From NCBI RefSeq assembly GCF_900129645.1, contig NZ_FSQZ01000001.1, forward strand, positions 62,001 to 126,000: a stretch of 64,000 nucleotides of DNA. The letters run 5' to 3'. This document shows, piece after piece, positions 36,956 to 59,269 of the stretch (the stretch's first letter is position 1; each line of letters begins with the position of its first letter). The notes under the pieces are model-generated. The model was given only the letters and a program-made list of their open reading frames with translations. It was not told the DNA's origin and ran no database searches. The stretch is from Acetomicrobium flavidum (GTDB lineage Bacteria; Synergistota; Synergistia; Synergistales; Acetomicrobiaceae). The translations under genes were made by a program, and so were the position numbers.

Positions 36956-37708
36956 TCACGATCGTAACGATATCAATACCGCTTTGGCTGTTCCTTTTTT
37001 CAAAAACGACCCCGTGCTACCGCCTTCGCTTACAATTTGATACACAAGCTCCGGATCACATACCCTTAAGCCAAACAACCCCACAACGCGCTTGGAGCCA
37101 AGGCCGTTTAGCAATTCAGGCCAAAGTGGAGTAGAAGGCCCGATGATCGCTACGCGGCCTGAGCAGAGGTCAAGCAGATGGTCTATGGTCTTGTTGATGA
37201 AGGCAGTGCCAGTTATAAAGACAACATCGCAGCGTGGCAGCTCCCATTCTGCCGCCCAATCAGGAAGGATTCCCTTCGAATGTTGCAAGGGGTTTCTTTC
37301 AAAGATGAGAAGTTCCTTTGCCCGCCCGGCGACATGACGGGCTAAAGGGGCAATGTTTCCGACCATACCGACTACATCGTCTTCGCTTATCCCAAGAAAC
37401 TCTATAGGCTCTACATCCTGCATGGGTGCATTTTGAGACAGCACCGCATTTACTGTCGCAAGGCCTATGGAAGAGGCTATAGAATCGGCCGTCATCAAAC
37501 CGCGTGCCAGGTCTAAAGCAAGCCGTCCAGCCAGAGGCCCCGACCAATTAAACTTACTGCAGCATCTGCCTTCGTCTAAGGTCGCAGCCAAGCCGCAACT
37601 GTCGTCTGAAAGCACCACACAGGTATAGCGCAAGCCTACCACCACTTTCTTGACAGTCAATCGCGAAAGCTCCGATTCAAGAGAAGTAATTAATCTTTCA
37701 ACGATCAC
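36956..37708 (-). CDS. DUF364/DUF4213 putative heavy-metal chelation protein
   Basis: 250 residues. VKKVVVGLRYTCVVLSDDSCGLAATL (DUF4213-like N-terminus) and VGMVGNIAPLARHVAGRAKELLIFERNPLQ plus CDVVFITGTAFINKTIDHLLDLC (DUF364 Rossmann-like half) support the family. Structures of relatives suggest metal or molybdopterin-type ligand binding, but function is unproven. Start GTG with GGAGG ten bases upstream. Converges on selB without an obvious terminator, and is downstream of the permease remnant and the formamidase gene on the same strand. Confidence 0.85.
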   Translation of the reverse strand: MIVERLITSLESELSRLTVKKVVVGLRYTCVVLSDDSCGLAATLDEGRCCSKFNWSGPLAGRLALDLARGLMTADSIASSIGLATVNAVLSQNAPMQDVEPIEFLGISEDDVVGMVGNIAPLARHVAGRAKELLIFERNPLQHSKGILPDWAAEWELPRCDVVFITGTAFINKTIDHLLDLCSGRVAIIGPSTPLWPELLNGLGSKRVVGLFGLRVCDPELVYQIVSEGGSTGSFLKKGTAKAVLISLRS

Positions 37709-37736: not shown

Positions 37737-37807
37737 AAAACGGGCTTGTTTATTGATCATGATCATAGCGTAACATAGTTGCATGAAAAATACATCAAGC
37801 CCGTTTT
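37737..37807 (-). terminator. Long-loop hairpin after the permease remnant
   Basis: 12-bp perfect inverted repeat (37737-37748 with 37796-37807) around a 47-base AT-rich loop; on the minus strand the right arm ends in a T5 run followed by more T. It would end the transcript of the formamidase gene and permease remnant, upstream of the DUF364 gene. Confidence 0.6.
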
Positions 37808-37820
37808 CAAAAAGCGATCC

Positions 37821-38091
37821 TCAATCCACGGGAAGTATGGTCTTTACCTTGAAACCCCTGGTAATCACGGCCAAATTGTCCATATCCCCACGCAGTAAAC
37901 ACCATGGCGCAGGCTGCTATCACATACGCAAGAGGAACGTGACCTTTGCTCAATACGGCAACGACTCCATATATGCCCATGGGGGCTATGGGGACCATCG
38001 TTATTATGGCAAAGGCGATGAGGTCGCCCATCTTTAAGACTCGTTTTAACCCTTGTTTGTCCGTCTGATTCTCGCTATGATTTTCAGCCAT
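37821..38091 (-). pseudogene. Amino-acid permease (APC family) with internal deletion
   Basis: The frame starting at 38091 gives a normal APC-superfamily N-terminus: KRVLKMGDLIAFAIITMVP, then a second helix ending in VFTAWGYGQF (about residue 73). There the protein should continue for some 370 more residues, but the same frame becomes non-membrane sequence and stops. In another frame the bases just after the break read AVITRGFKVKTILPVD then TGA (37821-37823), which looks like a permease C-terminus. The simplest reading is an internal deletion that fused first helices to last residues out of frame, near 37868-37880. Follows the formamidase gene by 16 bases, so it was probably its transporter. 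Confidence 0.75.
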
Positions 38092-39179: not shown

Positions 39180-39614
39180 TTAATCTCCTTCGAGTACAAC
39201 CTCGTCTCCTGGCTTAACAATGCCACCGTTGACTACCTCAAGGAAATAGCCCACCTTGGGCAGCAGACACCATCCGCGGTAATCGTATGTGTGAGGTTCA
39301 TCCGGTTTTTTGCCCTTTTCTATTACAAGCAAGACCACGTCACGGCCAATTTTAAGGCGGCTTTCTAGGGGGATCTGATCAGGCAATCCCTCCACCACCA
39401 GGTTTTCGGCCAAGGACCCCGGCGGAAAGGAAAAGCCCGCCTCTTTTTCGGCGAGCTTTATATCCTCATATCTCAATAAGCTGACCTGTCGTGACGAAAT
39501 GCCAAAATGGGAATCCCCATCAATGCCTTTTCCTTCGATGAATCGCGCCTCCGCCACGGGCTTTTTTGGTTCCTGTCTGTTTGAGCTAACGCATACTGCC
39601 AGAACGCGCGCCAT
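39180..39614 (-). CDS. MOSC-domain protein
   Basis: 144 residues, a stand-alone MOSC (molybdenum cofactor sulfurase C-terminal) domain: GKGIDGDSHFGISSRQVSLLRYEDI, FPPGSLAENLVVEGL, and the characteristic cysteine at the end of DYRGWCLLPKVGYFLEVVNGGIVKPGD. Such domains bind sulfur-carrying molybdenum cofactor ligands. AGGAGGT lies seven bases before ATG. It stands about 25 bases downstream of the 39.6-46.4 kb operon on the same strand and might be read through from it. The 140 bases that follow (39041-39179) hold only a weak 6-bp hairpin. Confidence 0.9.
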   Translation of the reverse strand: MARVLAVCVSSNRQEPKKPVAEARFIEGKGIDGDSHFGISSRQVSLLRYEDIKLAEKEAGFSFPPGSLAENLVVEGLPDQIPLESRLKIGRDVVLLVIEKGKKPDEPHTYDYRGWCLLPKVGYFLEVVNGGIVKPGDEVVLEGD

Positions 39615-39639: not shown

Positions 39640-40599
39640 TTAAATCCATATCTTACCATCCTTTACGACAAGTATATCATCCAAATAAAGTTCAGGGCTC
39701 CTCATTACAGCATCAACATGAACGCCTGCAGCAACTTTTCCACCAAAGGTGTCATTGCTTCCCATTGCTACATGAACAGATCCATATATCTTTTCGTCTT
39801 CTAGGATAACCCCGGTGAGGCGAGCTTTATCGTTGGTCCCAATGCCAAGTTCCGCCAAATTACGCGCATTGGAATTATCACCCAAAACCTCAAGCAGGCG
39901 ATCAGCGCGATCGCCTTTCACGTCCAAAAGTAACCCCTGATCAAATTCCAGGATGAGTGGAGAATCAAGAAGCCCAATACCAACGCAAGAACCGTCTATA
40001 AGAACGCTCCCCGTCGCAGTGCCCTCAAGGGGCGCTATGTAAGCTTCGCCTGAGGGCAAATTTCCCGATTCTCCTTTATTGCGGTAAATTCCGGTGCTTG
40101 GCACGCCACGTCTTCCTTCAAGCGACATTAAAAGCGTATGCTTTCCGGTAACAATTCTGGCCGATCTCGCCTTATCCAGCAAGACAGTAACCTTTTTGGT
40201 CAATTTTTCTACTTTTTCATAGTCGGCATTTATCGGGCCATTAAAAAACATATCTTCAGTGATCCCTGGCATGGTGGCAATTCGTGCCCCACAACTGCAG
40301 GCATTTTTCCGTGCCTGCGTATGGGTAAGAGAAGCGCTGGTAGGTGCCATAACCACATCCGACATCGCCATAGCCTTTGCCACCAGCTCGTCGGGTTCCA
40401 TGCCGCTTTTTTCAAGTTTTTGCATGCAAAGCAAGAAAGATCTAGCTTTTACCTCCATGCCAGCCTTAAAGATCGCATCGCCGATGTCCTGCGTAGCATC
40501 ATCACACAGGACAAGGAGCCTTTCGCCCCCTGCTATGCCCATATTTACCATTAAAAGCTTCTTTGCAATTTCCATCAAACTATTTATTTCGCTCATCAT
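39640..40599 (-). CDS. M29-like (aminopeptidase T/II-related) hydrolase
   Basis: About 319 residues. The first half (GERLLVLCDDATQDIGDAIFKAG; DVVMAPTSASLTHTQARKNACSCGARIATMPG) resembles the N-terminal domain of thermophilic aminopeptidase II, and the second half keeps NLAELGIGTNDKARLTGVILEDEKIYGSVHVAMGSNDTFGG, where M29 enzymes place metal Glu and His residues, ending in LYLDDILVVKDGKIW. Probably a metal-dependent amino- or iminopeptidase. ATG at 40599 follows GAGGAAA; the longer frame begins with TTG. Last gene of the OPT-racemase-DUF917-DUF1177-AroM operon, 10 bases after aroM-like. Confidence 0.8.
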   Translation of the reverse strand: MMSEINSLMEIAKKLLMVNMGIAGGERLLVLCDDATQDIGDAIFKAGMEVKARSFLLCMQKLEKSGMEPDELVAKAMAMSDVVMAPTSASLTHTQARKNACSCGARIATMPGITEDMFFNGPINADYEKVEKLTKKVTVLLDKARSARIVTGKHTLLMSLEGRRGVPSTGIYRNKGESGNLPSGEAYIAPLEGTATGSVLIDGSCVGIGLLDSPLILEFDQGLLLDVKGDRADRLLEVLGDNSNARNLAELGIGTNDKARLTGVILEDEKIYGSVHVAMGSNDTFGGKVAAGVHVDAVMRSPELYLDDILVVKDGKIWI

Positions 40600-40609
40600 G
40601 ATCTTTTCC

Positions 40610-41281
40610 TCACTCAAGCAATTCCCTGGCTATGCGGCTTGCAACGGTCCTGGCCAAGATCACGGGACATGAAGTAATTTCTTTTGCATGCTTTTTCATC
40701 TTGGAAGTGTAGCCTATACAATCCATTACTATTAATTGCGCTCCCCATTCGGATAACTCCATAGCGCCCCTTGCTATTGAGGCATCAGACTCTACGTAAG
40801 GTGAGGCAGCCACTATCCGAAGGTCCTTTGTCACGGCAGACCATCTTTTGCGCGATTGCTCTATTTGGTCCTTTGAAGGGGTAAATACGCCTAACTTCAA
40901 ACCTTCTCCAACTGCCTTGGTTACCTCAAAAAGCATTCTTTGGGGTCTCAAAAGAAAGCCATTTGCGCCAAAATCAGGAAATTCTCCAGTGCACAGAAGC
41001 AAAGTCACTTTGATACCGCTTTCAAAAAGCTTGCCGATCTTGTCCTGGAGCAGGGGAGTGATGTGCTTTTCTGCAACTTTGACGGATGTGCCGTCACGAA
41101 GCCTGGTTACCAATACATAATCTCCTTCTTTTGGAGCTAACTTGGCTATTTCTTCTTTACTAAGTCCATCTAGCGCTCCGGCCTCTACAATTTCAATGTC
41201 ATGCCCCAAAATCGGTTTTATGTCCACCATAACGTCGTTTCTTGGCGACTGTCCTATTGTTACGGCACCAATTTTATACAT
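40610..41281 (-). CDS. AroM-family protein
   Basis: 223 residues of the AroM family: MYKIGAVTIGQSPRNDVMVDI at the start, VTLLLCTGEFPDFG (about 94-107, Cys) and AQLIVMDCIGYTSKMKKHAKE (about 184-204, second Cys). The paired cysteines in racemase-like positions suggest a relative of the Asp/Glu racemase fold; the function of AroM itself is unknown despite its name and location near aro genes in E. coli. It overlaps the preceding gene by eight bases, evidence of tight coupling inside this operon. Confidence 0.88.
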   Translation of the reverse strand: MYKIGAVTIGQSPRNDVMVDIKPILGHDIEIVEAGALDGLSKEEIAKLAPKEGDYVLVTRLRDGTSVKVAEKHITPLLQDKIGKLFESGIKVTLLLCTGEFPDFGANGFLLRPQRMLFEVTKAVGEGLKLGVFTPSKDQIEQSRKRWSAVTKDLRIVAASPYVESDASIARGAMELSEWGAQLIVMDCIGYTSKMKKHAKEITSCPVILARTVASRIARELLE

Positions 41282-42104
41282 TGTTCATTCTCCCTTTATA
41301 AATACAATTCAAGTGATCCGGGGCTCCTGGGCCACAACGCAGGCATTCTTTTAAGGAATCCTCGATCCCACTTGGTAATGTACCTTTGATGGAACAAATA
41401 TATTCCATGAAGTTGCTAGCCCACGATTTATCTCCCTCTATCAAAAAAGTGGTACTACCTGCGCCTTCGTAAATTCCACCTCGTCCTATCACTGTTACAT
41501 ACGTGGCACCCAGTGCATAGATGCCATCAACCTCGCTAAAGACCTTGCCTACAATTGGAACTAATCCAACTGACATGCCCATAGACATATCCGGTACGTT
41601 TCGTCCACACCTGGACATCGCTTCCCTTAAAGAAAAGGGGCAATATTTTTCAAGCCCTGCAGCTACGATGATAGGCACTCCCTCGACATGCAAAAGAGGA
41701 AGAATCCTGCCCGGCTCACCCCCGAAAAAACGACCTGCCATCATAGCTGCATTTCCGTCCCCATCTATGATGTTTGCCCCACAAATTGCCAAATCGCTCG
41801 AACCCATTTGAGATACTATCTCCTCAAGGTGTCCATCCGCCGTTTCAGGTTTGCCGTTTCTAATCACAATGGAATGCGGGCCTTCAACATTACCTTCGGT
41901 CGATACGGCACCTCTCTCGGTTATCCTTCCGGATATCCTCAGTTTAATCCCAACCAAGGTCTCCGAAACTGCAGATACTGTCGTTCCCCCTTTCAAGAGT
42001 AAGATGCCTTGCTTCATTACGCGGTTGACTTCGGGTAACGAGGAAATGCCTCTTGCTATGACCCTTTTTCCCTCTTCTACGGTAAGTGTAACTTGAATTT
42101 TCAT
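41274..42104 (-). CDS. Conserved-looking protein of unknown function in the OPT-AroM operon
   Basis: 276 residues, not recognised. The sequence is soluble, Gly-rich and clearly a folded enzyme-like protein: ILLLKGGTTVSAVSETL (about 32-48), SSDLAICGANIIDGDGNAAMMAG (about 102-124), FFGGEPGRILPLLHVEGVPIIVAAGLEK, and YVTVIGRGGIYEGAGSTTFLIEGD. Three cysteines and a His close the C-terminus (CLRCGPGAPDHLNC), a possible metal site. Its ATG abuts the DUF1177 stop (TAAATG) and its own end overlaps aroM-like, so it is an integral member of the operon. The GGTT-type phosphate-loop-like motif could bind a nucleotide or sugar phosphate; that is speculation. Confidence 0.8.
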   Translation of the reverse strand: MKIQVTLTVEEGKRVIARGISSLPEVNRVMKQGILLLKGGTTVSAVSETLVGIKLRISGRITERGAVSTEGNVEGPHSIVIRNGKPETADGHLEEIVSQMGSSDLAICGANIIDGDGNAAMMAGRFFGGEPGRILPLLHVEGVPIIVAAGLEKYCPFSLREAMSRCGRNVPDMSMGMSVGLVPIVGKVFSEVDGIYALGATYVTVIGRGGIYEGAGSTTFLIEGDKSWASNFMEYICSIKGTLPSGIEDSLKECLRCGPGAPDHLNCIYKGRMNNV

Positions 42105-43043
42105 TTATTTTATCTTTCCTAAGGTCTGTAAATGCCTCATATGTCCATAAAGCGAGATTAATCTGTCGAATTCCGCCGCATCGTAAAAAGATACCCTTCC
42201 TTCACCGTAGTACTTAGCGACCTCAACGCTAAATCTAACCGCCTCGTCAATATCCATGGCCTGCGTAGCGCCCGTTGCACATCCCGGGACCGGCACCTCG
42301 GACGTCAAGGCAACTCCTACTACTGGTGCAGAGGTCGCCGTACACGGCTGCATTATGCTGTTTAAATGGTAAATGTCGTTGCCGTAAGGCGTGATATCCT
42401 GCATGGTTATGGGAAATACCACCGGCATTTTCCCGGTAACATAACTCATGAGAGACAACAAATCCTCGCTCACTCTCAGTATCCATCCCTCTTTTACAGT
42501 CGGCGATATGGCAAAACCGCGATGGTTTATGACTCTGTTTCCACGAGTCGTGTCAATCGAAAGCACAGCGTCCAACTCGCCGGTTATTTCTTCTTTGTTA
42601 GCCATCGCCATATCGATGGGGGAGCCCATGAAGGGGACGGGATCGTGTGGCTGGGTGGGGGCATCTGGACATATGTGAGTAGAGATGAAAACATCGCCCT
42701 TTAAGATATCTCCCTTGCTATACATATCACCTAAAAGCATGGCAGTAGCTACGGCAGCTATGCCTCCATCGGCGTCGGAGACCAGGCCAAGCCTTTCCGG
42801 TCTTGCGCCTATGCCGCCAAGCCTGCCGACTATGCCAAGGGTTGGAGCAGATCCTCCAGATCTTTTGCCCTCGTTTCCAGGTATCCAAACCTTTACAAAA
42901 TCGGTCTTCCCATTTGGACCTGTTACCGTCTTTACCTCAACGTCTTTAAGCCCTATCTTAACCAACACTTCTTTGACGTCTTGTCCATTTACTTTGGGAT
43001 TACCTAAAAGATCTATTGCCTCAATAGTCCATTTTAGCGACAT
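42105..43043 (-). CDS. DUF1177-family protein
   Basis: 312 residues matching my knowledge of DUF1177: TLGIVGRLGGIGARPERLGLVSDADGGIAAVATAMLLGDM (about 68-107), STHICPDAPTQPHDPVPFMGSPIDM (about 118-142) and VLSIDTTRGNRVINHRGFAISPTVKEGWIL. Acidic and histidine residues in the last two blocks look like a metallo-hydrolase site, similar in flavour to M20/M42 peptidases, but no activity is established. GGGAGG lies nine bases before ATG. Between DUF917 and the unknown protein in the operon. Confidence 0.82.
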   Translation of the reverse strand: MSLKWTIEAIDLLGNPKVNGQDVKEVLVKIGLKDVEVKTVTGPNGKTDFVKVWIPGNEGKRSGGSAPTLGIVGRLGGIGARPERLGLVSDADGGIAAVATAMLLGDMYSKGDILKGDVFISTHICPDAPTQPHDPVPFMGSPIDMAMANKEEITGELDAVLSIDTTRGNRVINHRGFAISPTVKEGWILRVSEDLLSLMSYVTGKMPVVFPITMQDITPYGNDIYHLNSIMQPCTATSAPVVGVALTSEVPVPGCATGATQAMDIDEAVRFSVEVAKYYGEGRVSFYDAAEFDRLISLYGHMRHLQTLGKIK

Positions 43044-43060
43044 GAAATTTACGCCTCCCG

Positions 43061-44140
43061 TTAAATTTTTAAGTAGCTTATTATTTCTTTTCCAATGACC
43101 TTTTCTATCGGTTCAAATAGCTCTTTACACCGCATGCCTTCACCCAAAATTAGGTTTTTGGCCGAAGCTGATACGACTATTACCATTTGATCTTTGCGAA
43201 CCTCGGCACTTGTTGCGGGAATGCCACTTTCTCCATCAAGCGTCATAATAAGATCCGGAAAGGTACTGATACGTTTGCCGTTGCACTCTAATGTCATGTA
43301 TTCGTTCCAAAAAGTAATTTCATGGCCATCTTCCAATACTATCTTTCCGTGGTCAAATCCTCCTTCGGAGACAAGTTTTTTATCCTTTACACGGGAAGCT
43401 GTGATTACGTTGCCTCCTAAAATATCCATCGAAGCAGAAGCTATAGCCCGTGGGCCGCTTGATTTTAGCTTCATCATGACCTCACCCAACTTTAAAGCTA
43501 ACTTTATTGCACCCGGAGCACCATGGTCTTTTATGAAGGATGCCTTCACCGGATTCCTTGCCACAGCTACGAGACCACCTGCACAGACCGCACATTGTCT
43601 TACTAAAGAAGAAGCAGAATCTAGTGCACCTTTGAAAACTGCTTCCAAGTGCTTTTCAGTTTTGGGATTCCCTCCAACGGCACTTTGAACTGAAACGTAA
43701 TCTTTAATTCGGTGCAACCCCATAGAACCCATCAAACCCGTAGGATGGGCCCGCCCATTGCAGGGTGCGTCAAGCAAAGCAAGATCCAAAACAGCAGCTG
43801 GCACCCACCCGTTGAAGATGGATCCTCCTCCGCACTCGTTGGTGATGAATGCGTTTATCCCAGAAACACCTACCGCTTGACACAGTTCGACCGTACGCAG
43901 GTGATCTTGGTCTGTCACAAAGGCTTCGCTTGACGACGGAGCTCCGACGGCAGAAGAGGTCAACACAACTGATTCGAGGTCAACAGCATTAATATCCTTC
44001 AATAAAACTTTGCCATGTTTCAGGGCTGTCTTTGCAAGCTTAATTCCTTCCGCCATAGAACCGCCACCGCCACCGCCGAGCAGACAGCCGCCGAGGGCTA
44101 TGGCATCTACCATATCTTCAGTGATCAAGATTTCGCTCAA
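43061..44140 (-). CDS. DUF917 (S-methyl-thiohydantoin desulfurase/hydantoinase-related) protein
   Basis: 359 residues. ALGGCLLGGGGGGSMAEGIKLA (about 15-36) is the typical DUF917 N-terminus, followed by SAVGAPSSSEAF, NECGGGSIFNGWVPAAVLDLALLDAPCNGRAHPTGLMGSMGLHR and FPDLIMTLDGESGIPATSAEVRKDQMVIVVSASA. DUF917 domains are related to hyuA-type hydantoinase/oxoprolinase subunits, and one characterised relative desulfurises S-methyl thiohydantoin. The start is TTG, with GAGGAGGT seven bases upstream, directly after the racemase stop. It probably acts on a cyclic amide. Confidence 0.85.
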   Translation of the reverse strand: MSEILITEDMVDAIALGGCLLGGGGGGSMAEGIKLAKTALKHGKVLLKDINAVDLESVVLTSSAVGAPSSSEAFVTDQDHLRTVELCQAVGVSGINAFITNECGGGSIFNGWVPAAVLDLALLDAPCNGRAHPTGLMGSMGLHRIKDYVSVQSAVGGNPKTEKHLEAVFKGALDSASSLVRQCAVCAGGLVAVARNPVKASFIKDHGAPGAIKLALKLGEVMMKLKSSGPRAIASASMDILGGNVITASRVKDKKLVSEGGFDHGKIVLEDGHEITFWNEYMTLECNGKRISTFPDLIMTLDGESGIPATSAEVRKDQMVIVVSASAKNLILGEGMRCKELFEPIEKVIGKEIISYLKI

Positions 44141-44141
44141 A

Positions 44142-44810
44142 TCAATTACCTCCTCTTTGCTCTAAAACCGTCCACAAGGCAGCTGCAGCCGCCTTGAGCG
44201 GATCTACTACAATTAGACCCGTTTCTTTAGCGATCAAAGGCGCTACGTCTATGCTTGCCATGCCAGTGCATGCTAAAGCGAGCACTTTGACACCTTTCTG
44301 TTTTAGTTCCTCTGCCGCATTTAGTGTGTTCGATCTGCCCGCAGGGGTCATTAAGTCAAGCGTCGAAGTTACACCACTGGGTTTTGTCCAAGCTATCATG
44401 CGATCACGCAATACCGCCTTCATGCCCACGGGTACTTCATCTGTAATCCCTAAGACACCAATGGGGAGATCAAAGGAAAGAGCGATGCAGGCCGTCGTCC
44501 TCCCTGCGCCAACTACAGGTATCGAAAGTACTTCTTTAAGCTCGCTTACTCCAGGGTCTCCAGCACAGCTTACCAATATACCGTCGAAACCTTCGCTTTC
44601 GAATTCCTCTGCCAGGTTTATAACCTTCGGAACGGCCATTTGCTCCGTCGTGTCATCGTGTATACCTTCCGGCTGATCGGGAATGCAGCGCGACACCACC
44701 TCCAGCTCCGGAAACCACGACATCACCTTTTTCCCGTGAAGTTCGAGCAAATCCCGATCGCTTGTAGTGAGTACCCTTATTAGACCTACTTTTGCCCTTT
44801 TTACCACCAT
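44142..44810 (-). CDS. Asp/Glu/hydantoin racemase-family protein
   Basis: 222 residues with the two-cysteine acid-base pair of cofactor-independent racemases: GILVSCAGDPGVSEL (about 79-93) and VLALACTGMASIDVAPLIAKETGL (about 172-195). GAGRTTACIALSFDLPIGVLGI between them is family-typical of hydantoin racemase HyuE. Next to DUF917 and an OPT transporter it may racemise a hydantoin or amino-acid derivative before ring opening. GGAGGAG lies six bases before ATG; overlaps the OPT stop by 10 bases. Confidence 0.88.
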   Translation of the reverse strand: MVVKRAKVGLIRVLTTSDRDLLELHGKKVMSWFPELEVVSRCIPDQPEGIHDDTTEQMAVPKVINLAEEFESEGFDGILVSCAGDPGVSELKEVLSIPVVGAGRTTACIALSFDLPIGVLGITDEVPVGMKAVLRDRMIAWTKPSGVTSTLDLMTPAGRSNTLNAAEELKQKGVKVLALACTGMASIDVAPLIAKETGLIVVDPLKAAAAALWTVLEQRGGN

Positions 44811-46450
44811 CCAAAACTCCTCCCTATAGAAAAGAAAAATCCATATATGCCATCGCCTGCTATGAAACCAGCACCGTAAAGCTCCATCTTTTCCTTATGC
44901 GTCTTCTCGTAAATGCGTCTTATGGCCACGGCGATCAGGAGACCTACCCCGTAAATCGGATTGTTTATAAGTAACCCAGTGGCAAAAAGTATACCCAATG
45001 CACGTTTTGCCTTACCAACAAACTGAATTATTGCCCCAGGTATTGCCCAAATGACAAGTTCCCGCAGGATTTGTGGACTTGAACCGGCCTTAATAGTGAC
45101 GGCAAAGGCACGACTCACAGGAGGAATCAAATCAAGCTTGAAATGCATATTCATGAACAAAGCTACTGCGATCATGGCAACTATGCCGCCTATCATCTCT
45201 GATATAAACTGTTGGCGCCTTCCGTCAAGCTCGTAGGGAATATTTTTGCCCATTCCCCTTATGATCCATCCTGTTTTTAAATCATAGCCCATATCGGCAA
45301 AGCAAGAACCCGTGCTTGCTACATAACCGGAAAGTAAAGCTAGGGCTAAAGGAGGAAAGTTCATAAATAAACCTATGGTTAAAAATATGATTGTGATGGC
45401 AAAACCTGGAAACCATCCGGAGTGCATGGCACATAGGCCAACAAGTATTGGTGCGATAAGCGCTGATATACCAGACCAAAAAATCCACAAAGCCAGTTTT
45501 GATGTTGTCATTTCCGTATATACGCCAGAGATAAAAGCCAAGACCAACGCTCCCGCGATAAAGAGGACAAAAGACATAAGAATGACCTTCTTGGTTTCAG
45601 ATGGAGATACCGTAGGAATATATTCATTATTTTCAATTTTACCTCTTGTTTTATCAGCTGAAGAGTCCTTTTTAAATATTATGATCATAGCCTGAATTAG
45701 CGATACAAATCCAGCACCTATCATGACACCGTGTGGTATATAGGTCTTCCCTAAATCTGCAGGAAGGCCACTTAGACCCATAGAAGTCATAACAGAGGAA
45801 ATTTGGGGAAAATAACCTCTCAATATTAAACCTATTCCCAAGGCTAGCATAGCCGAAGGATTGGCTATAAAGGCAATACCGACACCTGCCATAGGAAGCC
45901 CACTGGGTATAACCGGCTTTACCCTCAGCGCTGTACCCAGAGCTCCTAAAATGATGCCCTTAAATAACGTCTTCGCCTTCGCTCCTCCTTCGTCTCCTGC
46001 GATCAATGCAGCTGCAGTCGCAACCCCTGGAGGCCATGATCCACTGGCTGGGTACATTTCAGAATCATAGACCTTATATACAAAATATATCCCGATTAAT
46101 GTAGCGATAGTACTTCCCAGCAGCATAGGAATTACTAACTTCAAGTCTCCAAAGGCATACAAAATGCCCACCGCGAGCAGACCGCAATTAGCAGCTGCAA
46201 ACCCTCCTGCTGATGTCATCGTCTGAACTAAATTTTGCCGATCAAGGTTTCTAAATTTCGACAGTGCTGCCGAAGGAATCCTAGCGATAGACATTGCTAT
46301 CAAAGCACCGATGATGGAAGTATTGGGAGTGATTCCAATACGCGCTATGATCTGCATACAAATAATTGCCGAAAAGAATGTTACAATAAGGCTTATCAAG
46401 AAAGTTTCTTTTTCCATTGCTTTGACGTGTTGATTAGTATTTTGAGACAC
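44801..46450 (-). CDS. OPT-family (oligopeptide/metal-chelate) transporter
   Basis: 549 residues with about 14 to 16 hydrophobic segments. The N-terminal IIARIGITPNTSIIGALIAMSIARIPSA and TMTSAGGFAAANCGLLAVGILYAFGD match the prokaryotic OPT group, which uses protons to import peptides or chelates. SGYVASTGSCFADMGYDLKTGWIIRG near residue 373 is also family-like. Start GTG with AGGAGGG eight bases upstream. First gene of a seven-gene operon whose enzymes presumably process its substrate. The 291 bases upstream (46451-46741) are AT-rich; no clear promoter stands out for this strand. Confidence 0.88.
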   Translation of the reverse strand: MSQNTNQHVKAMEKETFLISLIVTFFSAIICMQIIARIGITPNTSIIGALIAMSIARIPSAALSKFRNLDRQNLVQTMTSAGGFAAANCGLLAVGILYAFGDLKLVIPMLLGSTIATLIGIYFVYKVYDSEMYPASGSWPPGVATAAALIAGDEGGAKAKTLFKGIILGALGTALRVKPVIPSGLPMAGVGIAFIANPSAMLALGIGLILRGYFPQISSVMTSMGLSGLPADLGKTYIPHGVMIGAGFVSLIQAMIIIFKKDSSADKTRGKIENNEYIPTVSPSETKKVILMSFVLFIAGALVLAFISGVYTEMTTSKLALWIFWSGISALIAPILVGLCAMHSGWFPGFAITIIFLTIGLFMNFPPLALALLSGYVASTGSCFADMGYDLKTGWIIRGMGKNIPYELDGRRQQFISEMIGGIVAMIAVALFMNMHFKLDLIPPVSRAFAVTIKAGSSPQILRELVIWAIPGAIIQFVGKAKRALGILFATGLLINNPIYGVGLLIAVAIRRIYEKTHKEKMELYGAGFIAGDGIYGFFFSIGRSFGWW

Positions 46451-46717: not shown

Positions 46718-46834
46718 GTGCATAATGAACAAAAGCTATTTTTAAACATCCGCTTTGTGTTGATATACAGAATGGAAAAATATGGCAAGCTGCAAAATAG
46801 AGTTGCTCTTGCTATCAAGCAGTTGATCGCCTAA
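46718..46834 (+). other. Possible 38-codon ORF with a strong ribosome site, antisense to the pucR 3' end
   Basis: GAGGAGG (46706-46712) lies five bases before a GTG that opens a short basic frame (MHNEQKLFLNIRFVLIYRME...) ending at TAA 46832-46834. A TACAAT-like -10 (about 46679-46684) precedes. It overlaps the end of pucR on the opposite strand. It could be a leader, the stump of a lost gene, or chance; the ribosome site is its only support. Confidence 0.2.
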
Positions 46835-47899
46835 CAATTCTTCAATCTGCCCTAGACGATACCTTAGCGTATTTCTATGGATTTGGAGGAGGGATGACGC
46901 AATCTGTTGATTTTTACCGGACTCCAGAAAGACCTTCAAAGTTTTAAAAAGTTCTGTTCCCTGGTTGGCATCGTGATCCAAGATAGGGGAAAGCATATGA
47001 GATGCGGTCGAAATTATTTCCCCAAGTTGCGGGTGTTCGAGAATTATTGAAAGCATCTTTATCTGGGAAAAGGGTATAACTCCAATCTTGTAACCTAAGA
47101 CTTTGCCAAGCTGAGATGCCACTTGTGCCTCGTTCAAAGAATGTTTTATGCACTTGCCAAGAGGACGTGGCTCGCTTAATCCAAGCAATAAATCCTTACC
47201 TTTAAGTTGACCTTTTAAAAATTCAACTACTTCCTTAATTGTTTCTACGGGTAAATCTCTAAGAAGAATTACTAGATCTTCATGGCGAGGAGCGAGGATA
47301 AATTCGAGATCAGCCCTTAATAGGACATGCCGCAAAAGAGCGATATCATCATTATTAAAATTAAATCCGACAGAGGAAGTCAAAACACCGATACGCACAG
47401 GAGTGCCCCTTTCCCATCCATACGATCCAAGTTCTTCAACTGCAGTTTGTACATCACCCTCTAAAAGTTGAATGAAAACATCACTTTTGGCCAAGCTTCT
47501 TTTCAGGCTTTCTTCCGATTTTATAATCTCAAACATTACATCTTTTATAATTTGTATATAAGGTACATTGATCGGTAGGCCAATAATGGGCATGGAATAG
47601 CGATTTGCAGCTTCGATTACAGAAGCTGGAAGGGAGTTTATAAAACGCCCCAGTTTTATTCCGAATCCAGCTAAATTTCGCTTTGCACCCACTTCGACAA
47701 GCTTACTCAATCCATCTTCATTGTCCTTAAAGGCAAAGGCAGTGGTAAGAATAAATTCATAGGAAACAAGCCAATTTTCGGCATCAGGTACCTCCAGTAT
47801 ATCTAGGTATTTTATTTTCCTGTTGAGACCACTTTGCCCTGCTAAAATAGAGGATCCTGAGAGAACTGGTAACTTCAACATTTCATTCACTGAAATCAT
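46742..47899 (-). CDS. PucR-family transcriptional regulator
   Basis: 385 residues. The N-terminal purine-catabolism-regulator (PucR) domain is clear: ISVNEMLKLPVLSGSSILAG, KYLDILEVPDAENWLVSYEFILTTAFAF, GFGIKLGRFINSLPASVIEAAN. A GGDEF-like middle (about 150-290) and the C-terminal PucR helix-turn-helix (SSLLQIHRNTLRYRLGQIEELLG, about 340-362) complete it. Such proteins sense purines or other nitrogen sources and control catabolic genes nearby. It sits between the divergent NCS1-amidase unit and the co-oriented OPT operon, so either may be its target. Confidence 0.93.
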   Translation of the reverse strand: MISVNEMLKLPVLSGSSILAGQSGLNRKIKYLDILEVPDAENWLVSYEFILTTAFAFKDNEDGLSKLVEVGAKRNLAGFGIKLGRFINSLPASVIEAANRYSMPIIGLPINVPYIQIIKDVMFEIIKSEESLKRSLAKSDVFIQLLEGDVQTAVEELGSYGWERGTPVRIGVLTSSVGFNFNNDDIALLRHVLLRADLEFILAPRHEDLVILLRDLPVETIKEVVEFLKGQLKGKDLLLGLSEPRPLGKCIKHSLNEAQVASQLGKVLGYKIGVIPFSQIKMLSIILEHPQLGEIISTASHMLSPILDHDANQGTELFKTLKVFLESGKNQQIASSLLQIHRNTLRYRLGQIEELLGDQLLDSKSNSILQLAIFFHSVYQHKADV

Positions 47900-48148: not shown

Positions 48149-49381
48149 GTGCAGGAAAGAGAAGAGCTTATCCTCAACCCAGTTCCACAAGAAGAACGCA
48201 CAGGATGGAGGGCTCCGCTTTTTAATATACTAGGTTGTAACATAGCCATTTCAGAACTAATGGTTGGCGGAGCACTTATAGCGGGTATGACTTTCAAGGA
48301 TATGGCTATAGCTTCAGTCATCGGCAATCTTTTGTTGGTAGTTATATTGTCCATCCAAGGATATATAGGATACAAGGAAGGGCTTAACACTTACATCCTT
48401 GCAAAAGGGGCCTTTGGCAATGTGGGAGGCAAATGGATCATTTCCTTGATCTTAGGAATTACGAGCTTTGGTTGGTTTGGAGTCCAAGCTGGAGTAGCCG
48501 GGTTGTCGATCCAAAAGATTTTTCCAAGCTTTAATTTCACCATTACAACTATCGTAATAGGACTGTTGATGGTAATCGTGGCTACGTATGGGTTTAAAAC
48601 TATGGCGGTCTTCAATTATATAGCAATACCGCCATTGATTATTTTGCTCACATGGGGGTTGATCAAAACTGTAGGAATTAATAACATTGATACCATCAAA
48701 TCTTACATACCTTCTCAACACATCAGCTTAAAAGAAGGTATCAATATGGTCGTAGGATTAATTATAGTTGGTGCAGTGATATCTCCAGATTACCTTCGCT
48801 ATGCTAAAAGGACTTTAGATATTTTCATGGTAGGATTTATCGGTTTTGCCATCATATCCATTTTCCAACAGATTGCAGCAGGCATCATTGCAATGCAAGC
48901 GCCGACATGGGATATAACGGAAGTACTTGCACAGCTTGGTTTCAACTGGATTGCCTTTGCAATACTACTGTTGGCTGCTTGGTCGACAAATTTATCAAAT
49001 GCTTACTCCGGCGGTTTGGCACTTAAAAACTTATTTCCGAATATAAACAGATCTACATTGACATTCATCGCGGGATTGATAGGAACAACAATAGCAGCTT
49101 TAGGTATTGTATTTAAATTTCAAAGCTTTCTTGGATTCTTAAGCATGATGATACCCTCAATCGCCGGTGTAATGTGGGTCGAGTACTACATTATCCAAGG
49201 AAGGCAGTTTAGGGTCCGCGAGGGCATTAATGTTCCAGCGTTCCTTGCTTGGTTGCTAGGGTTTTTGATATCTTACCTTTCGACAAAATATCAATACGGT
49301 TTACCACCGATAAACGGCATCGTAAGCGCAAGCATTTTATATCTTGTTTTTGCCCGCTTGTTTCATCTTGCTGAAAAATAA
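48149..49381 (+). CDS. NCS1-family permease (cytosine permease-like)
   Basis: 410 residues with about 12 membrane segments. TGWRAPLFNILGCNIAISELMVGGALIAGM (about 18-47) and GAFGNVGGKWIISLILGITSFGWFGVQAGVAGLSI match CodB-type NCS1 permeases, which import cytosine, hydantoins (Mhp1), allantoin or related compounds with cations. GAGGTG lies eight bases before the GTG start. The downstream gene is an amidase of the nitrilase superfamily, so the substrate is probably a small N-heterocycle or ureide; which cannot be read. Confidence 0.9.
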   Translation: MQEREELILNPVPQEERTGWRAPLFNILGCNIAISELMVGGALIAGMTFKDMAIASVIGNLLLVVILSIQGYIGYKEGLNTYILAKGAFGNVGGKWIISLILGITSFGWFGVQAGVAGLSIQKIFPSFNFTITTIVIGLLMVIVATYGFKTMAVFNYIAIPPLIILLTWGLIKTVGINNIDTIKSYIPSQHISLKEGINMVVGLIIVGAVISPDYLRYAKRTLDIFMVGFIGFAIISIFQQIAAGIIAMQAPTWDITEVLAQLGFNWIAFAILLLAAWSTNLSNAYSGGLALKNLFPNINRSTLTFIAGLIGTTIAALGIVFKFQSFLGFLSMMIPSIAGVMWVEYYIIQGRQFRVREGINVPAFLAWLLGFLISYLSTKYQYGLPPINGIVSASILYLVFARLFHLAEK

Positions 49382-49411
49382 TAAATAAATGATTAATTGG
49401 AGGGCTGTAAA

Positions 49412-50230
49412 ATGTCAAGGATAGTGAATATCGGGATCGTCCAGATGGATTCAAAACTAGGAGATGTGCCATACAATATCGATCATGCCAAAAGTTTGAT
49501 TGATATTGCCGTAAAGGCAGGCGCAAACATAATATGTTTGCCAGAGCTTTTTGCTACTGGATATAATTTAAGCGTTCTTAAAGACAACGTTGTGAAGTTA
49601 AGCATTCAATATTACGAACAAATTTGCCAAGAAATTTCAGATATTGCCAAACACAATAAGGTTTACATAATCGCCCCCTTCGGTGAAAAAGGAGAGGTTT
49701 CAGGAGTAGTATATAATTCTGCCTTACTATTTGACGACGAAGGAAAGATGATGGGAAGCTTTGCGAAGACACACCTTTGGACACTGGAGCGATTGTATTT
49801 TAAAGAAGGATCAAGATATCCCGTTTTTGAAACGAAATACGGCAAAATCGGCATAATGATATGTTACGATGCCGGCTTTCCGGAGGCATGCAGGAGTTTA
49901 TGCTTAAAAGGAGCTGAAATTGTCTTCGTACCGGCAGCATGGAGAAAACAGGACAAAGATATGTGGGATCTGAACCTTCGGCAAAGATCCCTCGAAAACC
50001 TCTTATTCACAGTTGGCGTCAACAGAGTAGGAGTAGAGGAGGATTTACGCTTATTTGGGGGCAGCAAAATATGTAACCCTAGGAGTGAAGTAATATGCGA
50101 GTTGCCTATCGACAAGGAAGATATCACGGTTTTTAGCATCGATTTAGACGAAGTAGTTGACCAAAGAATCCAAATACCGTATCTGAGGGACAGGAAGCCA
50201 TGGCTATACACAAAACTTGTTGAAATGTAA
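49412..50230 (+). CDS. Nitrilase-superfamily carbon-nitrogen hydrolase
   Basis: About 272 residues with the Glu-Lys-Cys triad: ICLPELFATGYNL (Glu, about 43), SFAKTHLWTLERLYF (Lys, about 113) and IGIMICYDAGFPEACR (Cys, about 147). Members hydrolyse amides, carbamoyl compounds (beta-ureidopropionase, N-carbamoylputrescine amidase) or omega-amides. With an NCS1 permease directly upstream (30-base gap), a carbamoyl- or ring-opened pyrimidine/hydantoin substrate is reasonable. ATG at 49412 has GGAGGG seven bases upstream, so it is preferred over the TTG five codons earlier. Converges on the second racemase. Confidence 0.92.
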   Translation: MSRIVNIGIVQMDSKLGDVPYNIDHAKSLIDIAVKAGANIICLPELFATGYNLSVLKDNVVKLSIQYYEQICQEISDIAKHNKVYIIAPFGEKGEVSGVVYNSALLFDDEGKMMGSFAKTHLWTLERLYFKEGSRYPVFETKYGKIGIMICYDAGFPEACRSLCLKGAEIVFVPAAWRKQDKDMWDLNLRQRSLENLLFTVGVNRVGVEEDLRLFGGSKICNPRSEVICELPIDKEDITVFSIDLDEVVDQRIQIPYLRDRKPWLYTKLVEM

Positions 50231-50265: not shown

Positions 50266-51036
50266 TCATTTCATGGGTATCTTGAAATATTCATCGAGCT
50301 TCCATTGGTGTATTTCGCTGTATTTGGGCTTTTCGTAAGCTCCCACTTTACTTGTCGTCCAGTTCAGCATATTTTTGCAACTTACCAAAAATTCGGCCTC
50401 TTTGCACGCAGCTATCATGGAATCTATCACTGGAACGCCAAGTTCATCCTGAACCTTTTGAAAGAACCCAAACTCTTTAGTGCATCCCAAAACTATAACC
50501 TCTGCGCCATCTTCTTTCACTGCACGTTCTGCTTCTCTCAGAATCCTTTCTTCCGCAAGATCCTTCTTGTCTTGAAAATCAAGGACGCCTAGCTCAACCG
50601 AGCGAAACGACGCCAGCTTATTTTCAAAACCGTATTTTCTCACGTTTTCCTCCATATAAGGGATCATCTTTCGACGCCCTACTATTATCGAAAAGCTGGC
50701 CCCAAGCTTAACAGCAATTGATAATGATGCTTCACATGGTGCAGTAACCACAAGTTTATCGCTCATCTCTCTAGCTTCATATAGAAATGGGTCATAAAAA
50801 CACCCGATAATTGCAGCATCAAATCCATCAATCTCTGCTTGCTTTATTTTATTCAACAGCTCAGGAGCAATTAACGCAGAATAGTAAAGATATTCTAGAT
50901 GATACGGAGCCTTTGCAAGAGAGGTTGCGCATACTGTACAATTTTCTACATATTTAAGGATATAACTTTTTATTTGGTCGTCTAAAAAACTATAGCCTAT
51001 AGGACTAATATACATTAATTTCTTTACATTCGCCAA
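50266..51036 (-). CDS. Asp/Glu/hydantoin racemase-family protein (second copy)
   Basis: 256 residues, distinct from the 44.1 kb copy. The two active-site cysteines are in FDAAIIGCFYDPFLYEAREM (about 80) and VIVLGCTKEFGFFQKV (about 184); VVTAPCEASLSIAVKLGASFSIIVGRR lies between. A C-terminal tail of about 30 residues (WTTSKVGAYEKPKYSEIHQW) is extra. Start is TTG with GGAGGG eight bases upstream. It is the last gene of the aminopeptidase-PepV-ABC run and may racemise an amino acid or hydantoin released from imported peptides. Confidence 0.85.
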   Translation of the reverse strand: MANVKKLMYISPIGYSFLDDQIKSYILKYVENCTVCATSLAKAPYHLEYLYYSALIAPELLNKIKQAEIDGFDAAIIGCFYDPFLYEAREMSDKLVVTAPCEASLSIAVKLGASFSIIVGRRKMIPYMEENVRKYGFENKLASFRSVELGVLDFQDKKDLAEERILREAERAVKEDGAEVIVLGCTKEFGFFQKVQDELGVPVIDSMIAACKEAEFLVSCKNMLNWTTSKVGAYEKPKYSEIHQWKLDEYFKIPMK

Positions 51037-51059
51037 CTTTGATGCCCTCCTTGAGTAAT

Positions 51060-52019
51060 TTATTTATATAAGTGACAACGGACATAATGACGTGCTTCTA
51101 ATTCTTTCATATCTGGATCCAGCTTTTTGCATTGATCCGTTACAAACGGACATCTAAGATGAAAGCTACAACCGGGAGGAATATTTACAGGACTGGGAAT
51201 TTCGCCTCTTGAAGTTATTTTTTTAGGCTTAAGCTGTTCTTCCTCATCGGTAACTACCGGAATTGAGGAGAGTAACATTTGCGTATATGGGTGCAGTGGC
51301 TTCTCGAAAAATTCCTTGGTTTGAGCAATCTCGCAAATTTTGCCCAAGTACATTATCGCAACTCTATGTGCCACGTTTCTCATTAGGCTAAGATCATGGG
51401 TTATAAAAAGATATGACAATTTATATCTGTTTTGTAGGTCCATCAAGCGATTTATTACTTTTGCCTGTATTGATACATCCAGAGCGGAAGTTGGCTCATC
51501 CAAAAGTACTAAATCGGGGTTTGTTGCAATTGCATGAGCTATAGCAACGAGCTGACGCTCTCCGCCGCTCAAGGACCTAGAGAATCGATATGCATAGATT
51601 GAAGACAACCCTACTTCTTCTAAAAGGGCTTCAGGAGATGCAGGAAATCCTTTGTATCTGTCATTTTTATGCAATTTCAACGGAGTGAACAATATTTGTC
51701 TTATTGTCCTTCTGGGATTCAATGAGGAATTAGGGTCTTGAAAGACGATACGTATCTTACCTTTAATTTCATTGGATCTAAATTTATAAAGTGATGATAT
51801 ATCTTGGTCATTGTATAGTATTTGACCATTTGTAGGCTCATACATCCCCACAACGGTATAGGCAACCGTGCTTTTGCCTGAACCAGACTCTCCAACTAAG
51901 CCCAACGTTTCTCCTCGAAATATTTCTAAGCTTACTCCGTCAACTGCCCTTACAAAGCTACCTTTTTTATATGGAAAATATTTCTTCAACATGCTCAACT
52001 TTAAAATAGGAATATCCAA
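51060..52019 (-). CDS. dppF: Oligopeptide/dipeptide ABC transporter ATP-binding protein (DppF/OppF-like)
   Basis: 319 residues. Walker A GLVGESGSGKSTVAYTV (about 39-55), signature LSGGERQLVAIAHAIATNPDLVLLDEPTSALDVS (about 151-184, Walker B) and the C-terminal oligopeptide-specific domain IPPGCSFHLRCPFVTDQCKKLDPDM with a four-Cys site (about 278-315). It powers peptide import together with the second ATPase. The start is TTG with GGGAGGA seven bases upstream. Overall order SBP-B-C-D-F is the standard dpp arrangement. Confidence 0.93.
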   Translation of the reverse strand: MDIPILKLSMLKKYFPYKKGSFVRAVDGVSLEIFRGETLGLVGESGSGKSTVAYTVVGMYEPTNGQILYNDQDISSLYKFRSNEIKGKIRIVFQDPNSSLNPRRTIRQILFTPLKLHKNDRYKGFPASPEALLEEVGLSSIYAYRFSRSLSGGERQLVAIAHAIATNPDLVLLDEPTSALDVSIQAKVINRLMDLQNRYKLSYLFITHDLSLMRNVAHRVAIMYLGKICEIAQTKEFFEKPLHPYTQMLLSSIPVVTDEEEQLKPKKITSRGEIPSPVNIPPGCSFHLRCPFVTDQCKKLDPDMKELEARHYVRCHLYK

Positions 52020-52034
52020 CGTACTATCCTCCCT

Positions 52035-53015
52035 TTAGAGATCAGCCTTATGACATGCAACGTAGTGATCGTCCTCATACAGAGTTAATTTTGGCTTTGT
52101 CCTGTTGCAATCTTCATTGCAAAAAGAACATCGTGGTTGAAATCTACATCCCTTAGGCGGATTTAGATAACTTACCATTTCTCCCGGTATACCTTCAGCT
52201 ATGCCTTCTCCTGTCAATTTAGGAACACATGCCAATAACGCCCTTGTATAAGGGTGAAATGGATTTGCGAAAAGAGAGCGGGTAGGACCTATTTCTACAA
52301 TCTCACCACCATACATGATGCAGACGCGGTCGGTAGTTTCCCTTACGACCCCTAAGGAGTGGGTAGCCAAAATGACCGACATGCCGGTAGTCTTAACTAA
52401 ATTATTAAGGAGCCCCAAAATTTGCGCTTGTATGGTGACATCCAATGATGTCCCAGGTTCATCAGCCAGTAAAAGTTTTCTCTCGGTTGCAACTGACATA
52501 GCTATACATATACGCTGTCTCATCCCGCCACTTAACTGAAATGGATATGACTCAAAAATTCTTTCAGGATCTGGCAAAAGGACATCGGATAAGGCCTTAA
52601 GCGCTATGTTCTTAATATCATTTTCGCTGTAATTTATCCCTTTGGCCTGCAAGTTTGCCCTTATGACGGAAGATATTTGTTCACCCACTTTAAAAACCGG
52701 ATTTAAAGAACTGGTCGGATCCTGAAATATCATCGACATCTCAGTCCTTCTTGTATTTAACAATTCTGTTTGACTCATCTTGTTTACATTGCGCCCTTTA
52801 TACAAAATGTCACCCTTAGAGCTAGCGTTGCTATCAAGAACCCTGAGTAATGCCCTAAAGGTGGTCGTCTTACCACAACCTGTCTCTCCCACTAAGCCAA
52901 GCCTTTCTCCTTCGACAAGAGAAAAAGAAACATCATTCAAAACATGCAGTAAGCCTTCGTAAACCCTGTAATACACGTTAAGGTCTTTGACTTCTAATAA
53001 CACTTCTTTATTCAT
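52035..53015 (-). CDS. dppD: Oligopeptide/dipeptide ABC transporter ATP-binding protein (DppD/OppD-like)
   Basis: 326 residues. Walker A GLVGETGCGKTTTFRALL (about 40-57), Q-loop FQDPTSSLNPVF, signature QLSGGMRQRICIAMSV and Walker B LLLADEPGTSLDVTIQAQ, then the C-terminal peptide-transporter Cys domain PKGCRFQPRCSFCNEDCNRTKPKL. Shares a four-base ATGA overlap with dppC. Note Gly-Thr instead of the usual Thr-Thr in DEPGTSLDV; a small variation. Confidence 0.93.
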   Translation of the reverse strand: MNKEVLLEVKDLNVYYRVYEGLLHVLNDVSFSLVEGERLGLVGETGCGKTTTFRALLRVLDSNASSKGDILYKGRNVNKMSQTELLNTRRTEMSMIFQDPTSSLNPVFKVGEQISSVIRANLQAKGINYSENDIKNIALKALSDVLLPDPERIFESYPFQLSGGMRQRICIAMSVATERKLLLADEPGTSLDVTIQAQILGLLNNLVKTTGMSVILATHSLGVVRETTDRVCIMYGGEIVEIGPTRSLFANPFHPYTRALLACVPKLTGEGIAEGIPGEMVSYLNPPKGCRFQPRCSFCNEDCNRTKPKLTLYEDDHYVACHKADL

Positions 53016-53911
53016 TGTTTTTCCTCCGTCGAGAAGAGGTCTCGAAACCCGTCTCCCAACAAATTAAATGAAAGCACTATGATCATGATAGCCAATGCAG
53101 GAAATATAGTTAGCCACCACTGGTCTGGCATATACTTGACGCCATCGGATATCATAGTGCCAAGCGCAGGTGCCGGTGGCTGCTCACCTAACCCAACAAA
53201 GCTCAATGCAGCAGCCGTCATGATTACTATGCCCATATCCAAAGTCATCTTTGTTAATATAGGAGACAAGCAATTGGGAAGCATCTCTTTAAAAATTATA
53301 TGCATCCAACTTGCACCTAGCAGTTGCGCAGAGCGAACATAATACTCTCTATTTAACGTCACAGCCATCCCGTAAGCTAATCGAGCATACCATGTCCACC
53401 ATGTTATGGTGATTGCTAACATGGCGTTCATTAAGCTTGGCTTAAGCAACGCTGCAACTGCCAGTGCCAAAATAAGCGGAGGAACTGCTAAAAAAACATC
53501 CGTAAGTCGCGTTATCAGAGAATCTATTAATGAGCCTTGAAAATAACCTGCCATTAAACCCATAGTAGTTCCAAAGGGAACTGAAATACTCAACACAATA
53601 ATTCCCATTAATAACGTAGATCTTAAGGCAAATACTATGCGACTAAATACATCTCTTCCCATGGGATCGGTGCCGCATAAATGTGCTAGGCTAGGAGGTT
53701 GATTCGCGTTCAAAAAATCGACTACTTTACCTGCATGGGTTGGATAAGGTGCAATAAGAGGGGCAAATATGGCAGCCAAAACTATCACGATAACGCCCAC
53801 AAAACCTACGACAGACAACTTATTCTTAGATAATCTATACCAAGCTCTTCTAGTCTTATCGCTAAAGCTTCCAAAATTATCACGCCTTTTATCGTTCATG
53901 AATACGCTCAC
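53012..53911 (-). CDS. dppC: Peptide ABC transporter permease (DppC-like)
   Basis: 299 residues, six membrane segments after a basic cytoplasmic N-terminus (DKTRRAWYRLSKNKLSVVGF). HLCGTDPMGRDVFSRIVFALRSTL (about 75-98) is the DppC signature, and the EAA loop is RSAQLLGASWMHIIFKEMLPNCLSPIL (about 192-218). Starts with GTG overlapping the dppB stop (GTGA); an ATG four codons later is an alternative. Confidence 0.92.
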   Translation of the reverse strand: MSVFMNDKRRDNFGSFSDKTRRAWYRLSKNKLSVVGFVGVIVIVLAAIFAPLIAPYPTHAGKVVDFLNANQPPSLAHLCGTDPMGRDVFSRIVFALRSTLLMGIIVLSISVPFGTTMGLMAGYFQGSLIDSLITRLTDVFLAVPPLILALAVAALLKPSLMNAMLAITITWWTWYARLAYGMAVTLNREYYVRSAQLLGASWMHIIFKEMLPNCLSPILTKMTLDMGIVIMTAAALSFVGLGEQPPAPALGTMISDGVKYMPDQWWLTIFPALAIMIIVLSFNLLGDGFRDLFSTEEKQ

Positions 53912-54927: not shown

Positions 54928-54967
54928 TAATTTCCCTCCTGACACTGACGACGAATCGGCTAGGTGC

Positions 54968-56581: not shown

Positions 56582-56619
56582 GTTTACTCCTCCTCCAAGC
56601 AGGTTGCATAATTAACTAA

Positions 56620-56640
56620 CAGGCACAGGATATATGCCTG
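56620..56640 (-). terminator. Small hairpin between pepV and the substrate-binding-protein gene
   Basis: 6-bp stem (56620-56625 with 56635-56640), nine-base loop, followed on the minus strand by a T-rich stretch. It may be an attenuator or an mRNA-stabilising structure; weak as a terminator. Confidence 0.35.
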
Positions 56641-56649
56641 CCCAAAAAC

Positions 56650-58050: not shown

Positions 58051-58066
58051 AGAACTCTCCTTTCGC

Positions 58067-59134: not shown

Positions 59135-59269
59135 GATCAAATCGCCTTCCTTTTTATAAATTACCTTGATTATATTCAAGCACGTGATTATTTACATCAT
59201 CTAACGAAATAAATACCAGAATGACTATTTGTAATTTTCGAACAATTTGGGATTATCATGGCATATTAT

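Follow-up and report, generated by a model that had tools for sequence, protein, structure and literature searches.

A run of seven minus-strand genes at positions 39640–46450 of a 64,000-nucleotide stretch of the Acetomicrobium flavidum genome (Synergistota; contig NZ_FSQZ01000001.1, positions 62,001–126,000; hereafter the window) is one conserved unit, whose members co-occur far beyond chance and across phyla. In order of transcription, the genes encode an OPT family transporter, the racemase RacA, a DUF917 protein, a DUF1177 protein, an unnamed protein of 276 amino acids (UNK), AroM and a peptidase M29-like protein. The operon is best described as a widespread variant, with no function assigned as yet, of the gene clusters known around cyclodipeptide oxidase (CDO). 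Quite possibly, though short of probably, it is a catabolic cassette under PucR control whose substrates are small dipeptides, cyclic or modified, with 2,5-diketopiperazines the likeliest among them. This reading builds on the operon anatomy, the linkage across phyla, the folds, the conservation of active sites and the CDO linkage; the substrate and the reactions are proposed.

Organization and conservation of the seven-gene unit

The seven open reading frames (ORFs) lie where the initial annotation had placed them, as the ORFs themselves, their Pfam matches and the conserved gene order all bear out, and curated Pfam cut-offs are exceeded by every product except UNK (Table 1). Spacing across the seven genes ranges from −10 to +17 bases. 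OPT and RacA overlap by 10 bases, and UNK and AroM as well as AroM and the M29-like gene by 8 bases; RacA and DUF917 are separated by 1 base, DUF917 and DUF1177 by 17, and DUF1177 and UNK by none. The close packing described earlier (overlaps or gaps of 0–17 bases) thus stands, as do the non-ATG starts, which are GTG for OPT and TTG for DUF917 and the M29-like gene. The single transcript that had been asserted along with them is better called probable: it is judged from the spacing, and pattern scans for promoters and terminators gave results at chance level. Searches of the source genome returned only two M29-like genes and one each for DUF917, AroM, DUF1177 and UNK, all of them inside the window.

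In other Synergistota, the order OPT-RacA-DUF917-DUF1177-UNK-AroM-M29 is kept at protein identities of about 42–72%. A DUF1177 profile scan of GTDB genomes yielded at least 591 relatives, and 99 DUF1177 loci were examined. DUF917 and DUF1177 are adjacent on the same strand in 52 of these, DUF1177 and AroM in 51, and AroM and M29 in 40, Thermococcus included. OPT is present in 54 loci, a RacA-type racemase in 52 and UNK in 21, and a PucR gene stands immediately before OPT in 24. Carriers include Thermococcus, Thermoplasmata, a Salinigranum plasmid, Blautia, Paenibacillus, Actinomycetota, Serratia, and Sodalis and Klebsiella plasmids.

Because the 99 loci were picked by DUF1177 similarity and include near-duplicates, we made an independent test that was not seeded on DUF1177, using 300 genomes of one other phylum. 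DUF1177 was found in 33 of these genomes and a strong AroM match in 28; both were present in 24, where 3.1 would be expected (Fisher p = 4e-24). In 21 of the 24, the two genes share a strand and are no more than about 2 kb apart. A strong UNK match occurred in ten genomes, nine of which carry DUF1177 (p = 7e-9). Co-occurrence of the families in other genomes, on which the initial annotation had staked its pathway, is therefore confirmed, with DUF1177 accompanying AroM in 24 of 28 genomes.

Substitutions within the cassette point to the kind of substrate. Many DUF1177 loci carry Opp/Dpp peptide ABC importers in place of OPT, and the M29-like gene is replaced or accompanied in others by PepE, M20 or M24 peptidases; PepE, an Asp-X dipeptidase, was recognized with 331 bits, where the cut-off is 156. 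These exchanges argue for imported small peptides as the substrate class.

Linkage to cyclodipeptide oxidase

CDO consists of the nitroreductase-like CDOA and of CDOB (DUF6092), for which we searched with PF19585. According to a 2024 paper in Nat Commun, PF01177 racemases, DUF917, AroM, OPT, dipeptide ABC transporters and peptidases are enriched in CDO clusters that are not associated with cyclodipeptide synthase (CDPS); the paper leaves the role of these clusters open between purine metabolism and peptide products (PMC11055893). Five of the DUF1177 cassettes contain CDO (L055, L092, L108, L110 and L101). The order is PucR-OPT-DUF917-DUF1177-AroM-M29-RacA-CDOAB fusion in L055, and PucR-RacA-OPT-DUF917-DUF1177-AroM-M29-nitroreductase-CDOA-CDOB in L110.

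We also approached the linkage from the other side, starting from 13 CDOB-seeded loci; ten of these came from a phylum sample, and genomes that carry DUF1177 supplied the other three. Each of the 13 holds genes of the same toolkit, namely M29-type proteins (11 loci), DUF917 (9), PucR (8), Opp/Dpp (8) and racemases (5), and one of them (L200) holds nearly the whole cassette. Since CDOB genomes have few DUF917 genes each, the presence of DUF917 within about 19 kb of CDOB in 9 of 13 loci is far above random placement, for which well under one locus would be expected by rough arithmetic rather than a formal test.

Folds and active sites of the encoded proteins

RacA carries Cys82 and Cys181, which are invariant in 15 sequences. 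An hhalign comparison of AroM with RacA (95.6%) aligned Cys97 and Cys188 of AroM to this pair, and the AroM cysteines are likewise invariant in the family alignment. The initial annotation had pointed out two cysteine-pair proteins; RacA and AroM both have such a pair, and they are related. The 2024 paper (PMC11055893) describes AroM as lacking experimental characterization.

The DUF917 protein contains both S-Me-THD domains (PF06032 and PF20906) above the gathering cut-off. As an S-methyl thiohydantoin desulfurase it reaches 255.6 bits against an equivalog cut-off of 450 (NF058532), and that assignment was rejected; as a thiohydantoin desulfurase it reaches about 255 bits against 440 (NF058529). 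The sole solved relative is the hypothetical protein 2o3i.

For DUF1177, profile searches found no link to entries in the PDB or Pfam, and a literature search yielded no functional description and one incidental mention. An AlphaFold2 (AF2) model of the protein has a predicted TM-score (pTM) of 0.90. In Foldseek, the model comes closest to the catalytic domain of DapE and to aminopeptidases of the M17 and M28 families, with E-values down to 6.6e-8 and a TM-score of about 0.5. Residues Asp90, Asp92, Asp117, His123, His133, Asp164 and His226 are invariant and are candidate metal ligands only. Judged from the matches of the predicted model, DUF1177 is likely a metallo-hydrolase, in keeping with the earlier expectation that one would be found among the products.

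The M29-like protein passes the gathering score of PF02073 barely. Its Glu191, Glu256, His282, His300 and Asp302 are invariant in 21 sequences and align with ligand positions of AmpT, AmpS and PepS, which we take to be the M29 metal ligands (Glu, Glu, His, His, Asp). The best PDB match is NicX (7cn3, 2.2e-12), followed by PepS, AmpS and AmpT. A NicX-type dioxygenase with a His/His/Asp iron site was considered and rejected, since the protein keeps the M29 glutamates where NicX has Phe and His.

UNK gave no match in Pfam, NCBIfam, the PDB or the plasmid collection. Its AF2 model has a pTM of 0.79, and Foldseek returned eIF2B, CoA transferases and 1ydm with probabilities up to 1.00 but TM-scores of only about 0.35 and no sequence support, which hints weakly but consistently at a NagB/RpiA/CoA-transferase-like (ISOCOT) fold. 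Family alignments show a conserved C-terminal C..H..C stretch, and the gene nearly always adjoins DUF1177. A more distant subfamily of about 265 residues, often with a C-terminal cysteine cluster, occurs in Clostridia (about 70 of the 300 genomes) and Thermococcus, mostly without DUF1177 (L143, L156-L175). One Acetomicrobium relative has a second copy of the family (L145, G004:C7:7000-24000), where its neighbours are NCS1, racemases, two DUF917 genes, M29b, M20, HyuA/HyuB, PucR and a proline-racemase-like gene.

A proposed route and its alternatives

In the proposed cassette, OPT would import the compound, as its family suggests. RacA and AroM, which belong to a cofactor-independent two-cysteine superfamily, would epimerize the alpha-carbons of the ring or of its products, and this might supply the later enzymes with a single configuration. 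DUF917, from a hydantoinase-like family, would hydrolyse a ring amide to give a linear dipeptide, which DUF1177 and the M29-like protein, given their fold and conserved ligand positions, would cut to amino acids. UNK might contribute an accessory isomerization or acyl transfer needed in some lineages only, if its predicted fold is a guide. The sequence of uptake, racemization, ring opening and peptide cleavage put forward in the initial annotation is thus of the right kind, and the pathway holds in outline.

Diketopiperazines fit all parts of this cassette. Their peptide bond resists ordinary peptidases, Paenibacillus and Streptomyces are among the bacteria that degrade them, and most of the enzymes involved have yet to be identified; peptidases on their own were unable to open the ring, and the study that reports this did not identify the enzymes responsible (PMC3852281). 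A stronger form of the proposal is that the operon performs complete, hitherto undescribed diketopiperazine catabolism independently of CDO, with DUF917 as ring opener, DUF1177 as a new metallopeptidase family, AroM as an epimerase and UNK as a new enzyme family; this we regard as conceivable but doubtful. As for the pathway being possibly undescribed, the literature searched gave no function for DUF1177, but racemases, DUF917, AroM, OPT and peptidases around CDO had already been noted in PMC11055893, so that the claim has to be qualified.

Several points weigh against the dipeptide reading. All NCBIfam relatives of DUF917 with an assigned activity act on thiohydantoins, and two hydantoinases tested as recombinant proteins failed to open diketopiperazines, whose degraders can moreover be highly specific, which calls for caution (PMC3852281). 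Profile alignment gave no significant sequence relation between DUF1177 and M20, and its metal site is a candidate only. The PF19585 search found no CDO in the source genome or in two others of the genus, and CDO was present in only 8 of the 56 cassette-bearing genomes searched. The association of DUF1177 with CDOB in the 300-genome set is weak (3/9, p = 0.06), and the selection of the 99 loci has to be taken into account as well.

Catabolism of hydantoins, thiohydantoins or ureides is a weaker rival, and we consider it unlikely. Here the racemase would interconvert 5-substituted hydantoins, ring opening would fall to DUF917, and the carbamoyl group would be removed by the M29-like protein or DUF1177. 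Such a route would agree with the S-Me-THD family of DUF917, with the PucR regulators, with the NCS1 permease and carbon-nitrogen hydrolase genes flanking the operon, and with the NCS1, Nitrilase and HyuA-type genes that adjoin DUF1177 in several Bacillus-type loci. However, DUF917 scores far under the desulfurase cut-offs, Pfam finds no HyuA or HyuB among the seven genes, and the recurrent partners are importers of peptides together with peptidases from several unrelated families. Together with CDO, these point to cyclic or modified dipeptides rather than to the hydantoin or thiohydantoin substrate envisaged in the initial annotation, which is not supported in that form.

Salvage of linear peptides that resist ordinary peptidases, because of D-, isoaspartyl or damaged residues, also appears rather improbable. 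DUF1177, M29 or PepE would cut the peptides and the racemases would convert D- to L-residues, in line with OPT or Opp/Dpp, PepE, M20, M24 and M29 around DUF1177 and with the two racemase-type proteins, but the recurrent DUF917 and the CDO linkage would be left unexplained. That the genes serve to make a modified peptide, or to protect their host from it, is very unlikely, even though Streptomyces CDOs make albonoursin-type products and biosynthesis is one option raised in PMC11055893: there is no synthase, the transporters are importers and not exporters, the regulator is of the catabolic PucR type, several peptidases are present, and the distribution extends over anaerobes and archaea. Chance neighbourhood or an annotation artefact, which the commonly close gene spacing of small genomes might invite, can be dismissed, as the same neighbours recur at about 42–72% identity and across phyla and the co-presence statistics already refute it.

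Genomic surroundings of the operon

Table 1. Coordinates within the window of the operon genes and of neighbouring features
Feature	Position	Strand	Evidence or remarks
OPT family transporter, 549 aa, GTG start, probable substrate importer	44801..46450	-	PF03169 89.5 bits (cut-off 25.8)
RacA, Asp/Glu/hydantoin-type racemase, 222 aa, invariant Cys82 and Cys181	44142..44810	-	PF01177 79.6 bits (cut-off 31)
DUF917, S-Me-THD-like, 359 aa, TTG start, probable ring (cyclic amide) hydrolase	43061..44140	-	PF06032 (N) 68.3 and PF20906 (C) 83.9 bits (cut-off 27 each)
DUF1177, 312 aa, predicted metallopeptidase/amidase fold	42105..43043	-	PF06675 448.5 bits (cut-off 25)
UNK, 276 aa, unnamed family, predicted ISOCOT-like fold	41274..42104	-	No Pfam or NCBIfam match; AF2, Foldseek
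AroM, 223 aa, two-cysteine racemase-superfamily protein (Cys97, Cys188)	40610..41281	-	PF07302 267.6 bits (cut-off 23.8)
M29-like protein, 325 aa, TTG start	39640..40617	-	PF02073 29.4 bits (cut-off 27); five metal-ligand positions kept
PucR-type regulator upstream of OPT, probable operon regulator	46742..47899	-	PF07905, PF13556
MOSC-domain protein, 25 bases past M29, possible eighth gene	39180..39614	-	PF03473
Second module: M29b, M20, OppA, DppB, DppC, DppD, DppF, RacB	50266..59179	-	Resembles the CDO cluster toolkit, without the oxidase
PucR regulator beside the second module	59355..60956		
NCS1-type permease, then carbon-nitrogen hydrolase	48149..50230	+	
94-aa ORF, apparent remnant of an amino-acid-permease-like protein	37807..38091	-	No Pfam match
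DUF364/DUF4213 putative heavy-metal-chelation protein	36956..37708	-	Far end of the gene run

Downstream of the M29-like gene, a MOSC gene and then an FmdA-like gene follow on the same strand, so that the transcript may extend beyond the seven genes. Both are kept in Acetomicrobium only, and the MOSC gene is retained in four other genomes of the genus. The DUF364/DUF4213 gene is kept together with these two in other Acetomicrobium genomes. In the locus of a relative (L021, genome G004), a 442-codon ORF lies between FmdA and DUF364, where the window has the 94-aa remnant. In other genomes, the permease and hydrolase pair adjoins DUF1177 (L031, L084). The second module, which lies upstream of the operon and comprises a peptide-uptake system, has a PucR regulator beside it. 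In A. hydrogeniformans (L020/L059), OPT is only 43% identical to that of the window and the rest of the operon 90–97% identical, which suggests an exchange of the transporter gene.

Implications and comparison with known systems

Cyclic dipeptides are abundant compounds with biological activity that withstand ordinary peptidases, and most of the enzymes that break them down have still to be identified (PMC3852281). The new part of our analysis is the likely substrate, a cyclic or modified dipeptide. If the proposal is correct, functions would follow for DUF1177, for DUF917, for the unnamed family and for AroM, which has been known in E. coli for decades but has had no role assigned to it. A single conserved cassette in archaea and many bacterial phyla would make diketopiperazine breakdown directly testable, and many non-biosynthetic CDOs would be recast as catabolic enzymes.

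The individual proteins relate to known families to different degrees. RacA is a member of the Asp/Glu/hydantoin racemases, while AroM forms a separate Pfam family that aligns to it with both cysteines. The DUF917 protein shares its two-domain family over the full length with the S-methyl thiohydantoin and thiohydantoin desulfurases, but stays below the cut-offs of both. DUF1177 resembles zinc peptidases of the DapE, M28 and M17 types in its modelled fold, not in sequence. The M29-like protein belongs to the same superfamily as peptidases AmpT, AmpS and PepS and keeps their five ligand positions, but it is shorter and has diverged; NicX, a 2,5-dihydroxypyridine dioxygenase, is of the same superfamily and differs at both Glu positions. 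PepE, an alpha-aspartyl dipeptidase (S51), occupies the M29 position in enterobacterial cassettes and is absent from the Acetomicrobium operon.

The closest known systems are the non-CDPS CDO clusters (PMC11055893). These carry CDO, whereas the Acetomicrobium genome is without it, and the paper's passages do not mention DUF1177 or UNK. Common to both are PF01177 racemases, DUF917, AroM, peptidases and importers of the OPT or dipeptide ABC type, and we reproduced this association from the CDOB-seeded loci.

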